Assembly: GCA_000634515.1 (NCBI GenBank)
Contig: JFNU01000004.1
Location: forward strand, 62,001-126,000
DNA from: Prochlorococcus sp. scB245a_520K10
Lineage (GTDB): Bacteria > Cyanobacteriota > Cyanobacteriia > PCC-6307 > Cyanobiaceae
DNA: 64,000 nt
Reading direction: 5' to 3'
Positions 45,564 through 49,760 of the stretch are shown here, piece after piece. A program made the position numbers and the translations under genes. Positions within the stretch are counted from its first letter, which is position 1. Every line of letters starts with the position of its first letter. Below the pieces are notes generated by a model that saw only the letters and a program-made list of their open reading frames with translations, ran no database searches and was not told where the DNA came from.

Positions 45564-46196
45564 TTACCAATCTAGAGATTTTGATACAATAGGAAAACTT
45601 TGCTTAAAAATAGACTTGCAATTTTGGGCAATAGATTTGTGTTCTTCTTGAGTACCATGAGCTGATCTTAAGTGAATATAATGAATCCATGATCTACATG
45701 ATCCAGACATGTAGATTCTCGTTGGAGTTGCTAAGGGTAAAACAAATCTCGCACATTCTTTAGCTATTCCTTGAGCAAGTAAATCTTCATATAATTCTGA
45801 AGCAGCTTTAAAGTGGGATGAAATTTTTTCATTAAATCTTTTTTTTAACTCGTCAGGGAGGTCAGGAATAGAATTTTGTCTATTTTTAAAATCTTGTCTT
45901 CTCAACTCAGGTATAGGTATATTCCCCAATTGAGAACTATCTGCATATCTCTGAGAAAATTCCTGGAAAGTAAATGATCTATGTCTTAAAATTTGCGCTG
46001 CAATTCCTCTGTTTGTTTCTATTTGTAAGGTCATAAATGACTGTTCAAATACACTCCAATGTTCATTTTTGATACAATAACTCAATAATTTTGAATAGTC
46101 TTCATTCTTCTGATTTTTTGGATTACTTACTCTAGCAATGTAAGCCATTGTTTTTTCCGCATCCGGGGTTAGGGAAATTAGTTCAACTTTACTCAT
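45564..46196 (-). CDS. thyX: FAD-dependent thymidylate synthase
   Basis: 210 aa; RHRSFTFQEFSQRYA ThyX signature. Confidence 0.96.
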   Translation of the reverse strand: MSKVELISLTPDAEKTMAYIARVSNPKNQKNEDYSKLLSYCIKNEHWSVFEQSFMTLQIETNRGIAAQILRHRSFTFQEFSQRYADSSQLGNIPIPELRRQDFKNRQNSIPDLPDELKKRFNEKISSHFKAASELYEDLLAQGIAKECARFVLPLATPTRIYMSGSCRSWIHYIHLRSAHGTQEEHKSIAQNCKSIFKQSFPIVSKSLDW

Positions 46197-46197
46197 T

Positions 46198-46791
46198 TTA
46201 GATCTTTGCTAAAGTTACTTGCTCTGGTTGATTTTGATATTTACCTTTTCTATCTTCATATGTTGTTGAGCAAGGATCACCCTCAAAAAAGAGTAGTTGA
46301 CAAATACCCTCATTAGCATAAATTCTACAATCTGCACCTGAACTATTACTAAACTCTAATGTTAGGTGGCCTTCCCATCCTGCTTCTGCAGGCGTTGTAT
46401 TAACTATAATCCCTAATCTTGCGTAAGTACTTTTTCCAATGCATATTACAGTTATATTTTCTGGCACTTTCATCTTTTCAAAAGCCACTCCTAAACCATA
46501 GGAGTGAGCGGGAAGAATAAAAAAGTCTCCATCATCATCATGATGAAGAACAGTTTTTTCTAAATTTTTAGGATTAAACTTTTTAGGGTTCATCACAGTA
46601 CCAGGAATATGTCGAAAAATTAGGAATTCTTTTGATGAGAGCCTTAAGTCATAGCCATAAGAGGAACATCCATAACTCAAAACCGGCTTTTGTTGATTAT
46701 CAGGCTCAAGATGCCGCACCAAATTTGATTGGAAAGGATTTATCATCCCCTCAGATGCTTTTTGATTTATCCAGAGATCATTTTTAAGCAT
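46198..46791 (-). CDS. dcd: dCTP deaminase
   Basis: 197 aa; SYGCSSYGYDLRLS, IGKSTYARLGI, NTTPAEAGWEGHLTLEFSN. Confidence 0.96.
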   Translation of the reverse strand: MLKNDLWINQKASEGMINPFQSNLVRHLEPDNQQKPVLSYGCSSYGYDLRLSSKEFLIFRHIPGTVMNPKKFNPKNLEKTVLHHDDDGDFFILPAHSYGLGVAFEKMKVPENITVICIGKSTYARLGIIVNTTPAEAGWEGHLTLEFSNSSGADCRIYANEGICQLLFFEGDPCSTTYEDRKGKYQNQPEQVTLAKI

Positions 46792-46795
46792 TGTT

Positions 46796-47377
46796 TTATG
46801 AGCGAAGTTCAGTAATTTGGTTGGCCATTAATAATAGATCTTTAGGAATACATGTACCAGTTAGGATTACATCTCCTGATATAAATCGGTTTTCAAGTGT
46901 TGAAATCAAATCATCCTTATCGATAATTTTCATCTCAATAGCAAGAAAAATTTCATCAAGTATGATTTGATCATTCTCACCTGAAAGTAATTCTTTTTTA
47001 CAAAAATTCCATAATTCATTAGTAGATTCAAAAATAGATTGCTTTAAATTTTCATTATTTTCAATTTCTTCAGAATTATATTGATCAAGAGAATTTGATG
47101 ATCTTACCCAAGTCAAATTACCACAAAGCTTTACGGCATTAGCAATGCCTTGATTAACTCCTCCTTTTATAAATTGTATTAAAAGTACTTTTTTACCAAG
47201 CGCTGCATTTCTTAAAGAGTCTCTGATAATAGTGGAATAACTACCCCTATGAGGAGATTGATAAATTTGGATTTGTCCGTTTTGTGCAAATTTTTTTAAG
47301 TTTATTTTGTTAGCAGTATTTATATTTACAACATCAAGATCACCTTTGGAATAATTACTAGTTGAACTGTTTACCAT
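46796..47377 (-). CDS. CobO/BtuR (cob(I)alamin adenosyltransferase)-like protein with degenerate Walker A
   Basis: 193 aa; GKKVLLIQFIKGG, DQIILDEIFLAI, VILTGTCIPKDLLLMANQITELRS align with CobA/BtuR, but the P-loop region reads YQSPHRGSYSTIIRD. Confidence 0.85.
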   Translation of the reverse strand: MVNSSTSNYSKGDLDVVNINTANKINLKKFAQNGQIQIYQSPHRGSYSTIIRDSLRNAALGKKVLLIQFIKGGVNQGIANAVKLCGNLTWVRSSNSLDQYNSEEIENNENLKQSIFESTNELWNFCKKELLSGENDQIILDEIFLAIEMKIIDKDDLISTLENRFISGDVILTGTCIPKDLLLMANQITELRS

Positions 47378-47582: not shown

Positions 47583-48317
47583 ATGATACCTGCTTCTAGA
47601 GGATTCAGCCGCTTTAGTTCGCAACAGTCCGGACAAAGTAAAATTAACTCTGTTGGAGAACGTTTTCCAATAAATAGAACTTTAATGGAAGTAATTAAAG
47701 GTCTAGAGGGTGCAAGCACAGAAATGGTTGAGAGATCTAAAACAATATTTTTCCCTGGCGATCCTGCAGAGAGGGTTTATCTGATAAGAAGAGGAGCAGT
47801 AAGGTTATCAAGGGTATATGAGTCAGGTGAAGAGATAACTGTTGCTCTTTTAAGAGAGAATAGTCTTTTTGGTGTTTTATCTCTTCTTACAGGTCATAGA
47901 TCTGATCGTTTTTATCATGCCATAGCATTCACAAGAGTTGAAATGATAACGGCTCCTGCGAATTCTGTTTTAAGAGCAATAGAGGAAGATGCATCAGTAG
48001 GACTACTATTGTTGCAGGGTCTTTCAAGTAGGATCCTACAGACAGAAACAATGATAGAAACTCTTACCCATAGAGATATGTCTTCTCGTTTAGTAAGTTT
48101 TTTAATGGTTCTTTGTAGAGACTTTGGTGTTGCAAGTGAAAAAGGTATTACAATAGATTTAAGACTTTCACATCAAGCTATTGCTGAAGCTATCGGCTCA
48201 ACAAGAGTAACAATTACCCGATTATTGGGCGATTTAAAGGATTCTGGACTCCTGACTATCGAAAGAAAAAAGATCACAGTATTTGACCCAATAGCTCTTG
48301 CAAAAAGATTTAATTGA
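47583..48317 (+). CDS. ntcA: Global nitrogen regulator NtcA (CRP family)
   Basis: 244 aa; cNMP-like domain and [48 protein letters not shown]. Confidence 0.97.
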
Positions 48318-49322: not shown

Positions 49323-49760
49323 ATGTCGAAAGTAATAAGTATTGATCCTGGAAAAAGTAAATGTGGATTAGTTTTAGCTGAAATAAGTGAAAAAAAAGTT
49401 GATGAGGCCATCATTATTAAAAGTGAATTACTTGAGGGTTACGTCAGAAATTTAAATTCTGTTGAAAATATATCAAAAATCATAATTGGCAATGGTACAA
49501 CCAGTAGAGAGATTACCAAAAAAATGGATTTCTTCAAAAAAGAAATAATAATTTTTGAAGAAAAAAATACTACTTTCAGAGCTAAATCAAGATATTTCGA
49601 ACTTTTTCCCATTAGCGGTTTGAAGTTTTTAATTCCTAGGGATATTTTTATTCTTAATAAAAATCTTGATGCGATTTCAGCGTTGATAATTTTAGAGGAT
49701 TATTGCAAAATGAAATTTGCTTTAAATCAAAATGTAGATTTTAAAACTTGGCTGAAATAG
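49323..49760 (+). CDS. RNase H-fold (RuvC/YqgF-like) hypothetical protein
   Basis: 145 aa; VISIDPGKSKCGLVLAE, IIIGNGTTSREI, FEEKNTTFRAKSRYFE, LDAISALIILEDY. Confidence 0.7.
   Translation: MSKVISIDPGKSKCGLVLAEISEKKVDEAIIIKSELLEGYVRNLNSVENISKIIIGNGTTSREITKKMDFFKKEIIIFEEKNTTFRAKSRYFELFPISGLKFLIPRDIFILNKNLDAISALIILEDYCKMKFALNQNVDFKTWLK

Follow-up and report, generated by a model that had tools for sequence, protein, structure and literature searches.

A P-loop-less CobA-like protein encoded beside dcd in Prochlorococcus and its association with class II ribonucleotide reductase across cyanobacteria

Genes and features of the locus

The 64,000-nucleotide stretch of Prochlorococcus sp. scB245a_520K10 DNA analysed here (the window) contains a minus-strand open reading frame that begins with an ATG at 47377, ends with a stop codon at 46796–46798 and encodes a CobA/BtuR/CobO paralogue lacking a P-loop, which we refer to as CAT. 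It is followed on the same strand by dcd and thyX, and the three genes form an operon-like row; ntcA lies on the other side and is divergently transcribed. The features of this region are as follows.

45564–46196, minus strand: thyX, flavin-dependent thymidylate synthase (Pfam Thy1, 1.6e-49), 1 bp downstream of dcd
46198–46791, minus strand: dcd, dCTP deaminase (Pfam DCD, 1.1e-24), 4 bp downstream of CAT
46796–47377, minus strand: CAT coding sequence, 193 aa (PF02572, 1.4e-20; PRK07414, 9.2e-38)
46856–46861, minus strand: CAT residues 173–174, TG, a CobA motif that is kept
46952–46960, minus strand: CAT residues 140–142, LDE, the Walker B acidic pair, kept
47102–47110, minus strand: CAT residues 90–92, WVR, in the stretch running up to the position of CobA's corrinoid segment GFTWET
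47159–47176, minus strand: CAT residues 68–73, QFIKGG, common to CobA and nearly invariant
47234–47257, minus strand: CAT residues 41–48, SPHRGSYS, aligned to the Walker A motif of CobA (GNGKGKTT); Arg44 present in nearly all orthologues
47583–48317, plus strand: ntcA, Crp-family regulator (Pfam HTH_Crp_2 and cNMP_binding), the divergent neighbour throughout the order

Beyond ntcA, a 145-residue open reading frame at 49323–49760 that starts MSKVISIDPGKSKCGLVLAEI looks RuvC/YqgF-like by eye and has no Pfam match at 1e-3.

The arrangement of divergent ntcA followed by CAT and dcd in one direction is present at every locus of the order that we examined, 116 of them within the genus (the window's own locus being counted twice) and 27 outside it. 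CAT and dcd could both be placed in 113 genomes of the class; in 79 of these, representing 20 of 26 families, they are no more than 2.5 kb apart, with dcd always downstream on the same strand. In several distant genomes a thyX of another lineage (cluster c6) is found near CAT, and in other orders the usual upstream genes are those for RNase PH and an adenylate-kinase-like protein. The conserved neighbour is dcd, and no conserved neighbourhood of CAT with nrdJ was seen. A search of the sequence ahead of CAT in the window and 20 relatives gave no cobalamin riboswitch at the gathering threshold.

A CobA homologue with altered nucleotide and corrin segments

Residues 33–192 of CAT match PF02572 (CobA/CobO/BtuR; 74.7 bits, cut-off 25.7), and the Pfam search gave no other family. 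Salmonella CobA (4hut/1g5r) is the sole relative of solved structure found by sequence (E 2e-5), and a profile of the CAT family matches it with an E value of 4e-24. By sequence comparison CAT is a significant CobA homologue, and the full-length relationship to CobA/BtuR proposed from inspection in a preliminary description of this DNA is borne out, as is the alignment with CobA of the motifs QFIKGG, ILDEI and ILTGT that it had picked out. Among the NCBIfam models CAT matches PRK07414 (NF005648, 'P-loop NTPase family protein') best, scoring 129.5 bits, below the curated cut-off of 248; all of the family f1 copies examined also fall under this cut-off. The nearest named loci are in Prochlorococcus single-cell genomes, at 92–96% identity.

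An AlphaFold2 model of CAT built from 53 sequences (pLDDT 85.9, pTM 0.79) has low confidence over most of the first 19 residues. Its best four PDB matches are all Salmonella CobA (E 5e-10 to 2e-9, TM 0.64–0.65), and the next, far weaker, are thymidine kinases of the TK1 type. CAT is thus predicted to have the CobA fold.

The segment SPHRGSYS aligns without gaps to GNGKGKTT of Salmonella CobA, so the Walker A motif is lost while the Walker B motif is intact. No Walker A motif ([AG]x4GK[ST] or GxGKGK[ST]) occurs anywhere in CAT or in any of the 173 orthologues collected, nor is the variant present in Salmonella CobA, the structurally solved enzyme. The preliminary description was right that the P-loop is lost; the loss is, however, not peculiar to this protein but a long-standing feature of an entire cyanobacterial family. 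Decay of a single gene or a sequencing error was ruled out by the same loss in the 173 orthologues. Other Prochlorococcus commonly have SSYRGSYS at this place, other genera of the order APYRGSFS, and other cyanobacteria SSHRNFFT or SPHRSFFT. In Salmonella CobA numbering, the P-loop lysine K41 is replaced across the family by Ser or Phe and T42 by Tyr or Phe, and the position of K39 is occupied by Arg in almost every orthologue.

The remainder of the framework of CobA is preserved: comparison of 53 diverse family members identifies Q68, G73, G77, W123, E142, G174 and T189 as invariant, and W90 and R92 are invariant across the family as well. The CobA corrin segment GFTWET is replaced, by SNSLDQYN in CAT and by PRCIDTP in relatives. 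Phe91 and Trp93 of CobA, which lie within this segment, are reportedly critical for four-coordinate cob(II)alamin. Since both GNGKGKTT and GFTWET are replaced, the CAT family has, as judged from the alignments, a changed triphosphate site and a corrin site changed at least in part. Outside the order many members have two cysteines in this region (RCxxxRCID; positions 93 and 98), at which Prochlorococcus has Ser and Asp.

Distribution, age and paralogues

CAT is present in all 120 genomes of the order and in 137 of 145 genomes of the class, including Gloeobacter morelensis. A tree of 82 sequences groups all 54 proteins without a P-loop into a single clade (support 100/100), to which neither CobO nor tandem CobO belongs. 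PRK07414 members scoring above the cut-off share both this clade (100/100) and the CAT–dcd neighbourhood with the window protein. Values of dN/dS relative to the window gene are about 0.13–0.26. These comparisons indicate that the P-loop-less family is ancient, cyanobacterial and under purifying selection.

The preliminary description had suggested looking elsewhere in the genome for a second CobO with an intact P-loop, and one is present (L001, G000:C5; GNGKGKT), together with a 394-residue tandem CobO with two intact P-loops (L002, G000:C202:136254-137345); we can therefore rule out that CAT is the lone CobO of this genome. A PRK07413-type tandem two-domain CobO with two intact P-loops is also found at L254:8548-9582. 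An origin in non-photosynthetic sister lineages of the phylum and phage-borne copies were also considered and discarded. Two genomes of those lineages were examined, and both copies in each have intact P-loops; the 'cobO' of cyanophage P-SS2 is of the tandem PRK07413 type, again with two intact P-loops. This phage protein is 50% identical to the tandem CobO, and the phage genome also has RNR, dcd and thy1 genes. Only two viral-labelled contigs carry the CAT family (83–88% identity), and these copies are likely to be host DNA. Genomes of the Gloeobacter family contain a second, more divergent P-loop-less copy (L233, L235, L236 and L255:5905-6483), which in Gloeobacter morelensis sits on plasmid pGMOR1.

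Association with ribonucleotide reductase type

Class II ribonucleotide reductases (RNRs) were searched with TIGR02505 as well as TIGR02504, because the latter misses the monomeric cyanobacterial enzyme (RTPR). In a sample of the phylum, members of the class that lack CAT are restricted to certain families. The 27 CAT-lacking genomes tested comprise 19 with a class I RNR (NrdB), all of them negative for RTPR, seven with RTPR, and one (G170) with neither enzyme. Conversely, NrdB is absent from all 17 CAT-containing genomes tested and RTPR is present in 15; of the other two, G304 has an enzyme of the NrdJ_Z kind. The control genome of the laboratory strain Synechococcus elongatus exceeds the cut-offs both for the CAT family and for RTPR. 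In 215 genomes of the order to which G133 belongs, 104 have CAT, 97 have NrdB and a single one has both (Fisher test, 1.4e-43, uncorrected for phylogeny). In that genome, G526, the NrdB match is in pieces in different frames, and the gene is broken.

Three families (f4, f11 and f16) contain both states with a perfect exchange, as scored by CAT and NrdB, and within genus g34 NrdB without CAT is seen in one genome (G447), while its congeners have CAT and lack NrdB; the exchange has therefore happened more than once. Genomes of the Gloeobacter family keep CAT with a class II enzyme of the NrdJ_Z kind, and what is shared is therefore the cofactor. Class II RNR without CAT occurs in G173, G238, G315, G332 and G340, and in the incomplete G291 and G311, so CAT is not strictly required. 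In the window's own genome, which is 88% complete, nrdJ was not found; it was found in four congeners. With these exceptions the phyletic distribution of CAT follows that of the adenosylcobalamin (AdoCbl)-dependent RNR, and comparative genomics gives good support to the link between CAT and class II RNR; the mechanism behind it is inferred. Co-occurrence of the two does not show physical contact.

Several of these genomes have unusual complements. G332 and G340 (family f51) have class II RNR, and neither CobO nor any CobA-like protein was found in them; these genomes may depend on cofactor uptake or on a different adenosyltransferase. G170 (3.8 Mb, rated 99% complete) is unmatched by the class II RNR models and by NrdB, and its CobA-like gene is missing. 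In many class I genomes, among them G121, G435, G421 and G530, the nrdB matches lie in several separated open-frame pieces, and nrdJ matches are often interrupted by a long insert, patterns that inteins or introns in the RNR genes would produce.

Possible roles of CAT

We tentatively suggest, at somewhat less than even confidence, that CAT is a retired adenosyltransferase now in the service of the adenosylcobamide-dependent class II RNR. The family, derived from a CobA paralogue, would have given up the triphosphate-binding P-loop and probably adenosyl transfer with it, and what is left of the CobA fold may still bind the whole cofactor or just its adenosyl or corrin portion. CAT could then pass adenosyl-pseudocobalamin to the reductase, or remove and repair spent cofactor; cofactor escort, repairer or sensor are example roles that are indistinguishable here. 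A part in helping class II RNR with its cofactor is the likeliest reading because the protein is CobA-derived, has no usual grip on ATP, is encoded in a row with dcd and is absent where the RNR is cofactor-independent. The acidic pair and the predicted fold are kept and the triphosphate loop is altered, which would fit binding of adenosyl-cobamide rather than ATP. The corrin-handling residues F91 and W93 are not kept in the family, so binding of a corrinoid is not assured. The more specific form of this proposal, in which CAT is a dedicated adenosylcobamide escort or reactivator for class II RNR, evolved from an adenosyltransferase by plugging of the triphosphate pocket and lost when a lineage swaps to class I, is rather doubtful.

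MetH uses the methyl form of the cofactor, and to our knowledge NrdJ would be the sole user of the adenosyl form in cyanobacteria. This follows since B12 in these organisms serves only NrdJ and MetH (PMC6370689).

That the direct gene coupling of CAT is with dcd and not with nrdJ raises the alternative that it regulates or scaffolds Dcd and ThyX and reads the nucleotide pool; its tie to class II RNR would then be indirect, since an RNR acting on triphosphates gives dCTP straight to Dcd. The acidic Walker B pair and the invariant arginines could hold a nucleotide, and the fold also resembles that of TK1-type thymidine kinases. We regard this as unlikely, given that the triphosphate loop is gone, that dcd persists in the CAT-lacking G121, G133 and G170, and that CAT is also kept with class II enzymes of the NrdJ_Z type, which mostly act on diphosphates. 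The co-occurrence could in principle be an accident of shared ancestry, with the function of CAT unrelated to RNR; the Fisher test takes no account of phylogeny and the exceptions run in one direction. The presence of both states inside three families and one genus, and the independent tie to dcd, make this very improbable.

Two further readings both seem improbable, to much the same degree. Degenerate enzyme folds often act as sensors, and CAT might sense corrinoids or redox state and modulate DNA synthesis, with no part in handling the reductase's own cofactor. In favour of this, the cysteines at positions 93 and 98 are common outside Prochlorococcus; against it, they are absent within Prochlorococcus, the protein has no DNA-binding part, and a sensor does not by itself account for the loss of CAT with class I RNR. 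Alternatively CAT may still be an adenosyltransferase that grips ATP in another way, perhaps specific for pseudocobalamin or re-adenosylating the cofactor at the reductase. Walker B, QFxKGG, the conserved Arg56 and the TG motifs are all kept, and a conserved Arg stands in place of one P-loop lysine. Against activity, Lys41 and Thr42 of the P-loop are both replaced, often by bulky Phe or Tyr, the corrin segment is also replaced, and the genome already encodes an intact CobO as well as a tandem one. The strong conservation of the family agrees with the earlier suggestion of a repurposed protein. The general corrinoid or nucleotide sensor suggested with it is less likely than supply of adenosylcobamide to RNR, because the loss is ancient and family-wide, the gene is coupled to dcd and thyX, and its presence follows class II RNR.

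Relation to known systems

What was already known comprises the CobA homologues and the PRK07414 label. CAT resembles the ATP:corrinoid adenosyltransferases CobA/BtuR/CobO (PF02572; Salmonella CobA 1g64, 4hut) in predicted fold and whole-length alignment, with QFxKG, the Walker B LDE, ITG/LTG and a C-terminal AD..TELR in common, and differs in lacking Walker A and GFTWET and in having motifs of its own (R44, W90-x-R92 and Q76-G77). PRK07414 is the best family match, with the same clade and the same neighbour, the difference being the score of the window protein under the curated cut-off. Judging from the sequences, its name 'P-loop NTPase family protein' is misleading, as no member examined has a P-loop. 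The PRK07413 tandem CobO proteins, such as those of this genome and of P-SS2, are likewise PF02572 paralogues of cyanobacteria, but have two domains, both with an intact GxGKGKS/T, and occupy a separate branch.

Proteins that deliver or reactivate B12 at its target include the PduO-type adenosyltransferase acting for methylmalonyl-CoA mutase and the diol dehydratase reactivase. CAT would share with these the supply or renewal of AdoCbl at the target, if our proposal is right; the folds are unrelated and its target would be class II RNR. A literature search, mostly without subscription journals, found no paper on PRK07414 and none that joins a CobA-like partner with dCTP deaminase or RNR. We know of no description of the route by which adenosylcobamide reaches class II RNR, and of no earlier cofactor helper for this enzyme, so the CAT family would, if the proposal is true, be the first.

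Prochlorococcus and Synechococcus make pseudo-B12 and obtain their DNA precursors through class II RNR, and their phages mostly have class I RNR (PMC6370689). CAT, which is nearly universal in cyanobacteria and vanishes with class II RNR, offers a single testable candidate for cofactor supply. Members of the family carry the database labels 'P-loop NTPase' or 'adenosyltransferase', and should not be taken as cobalamin biosynthesis genes without proof.
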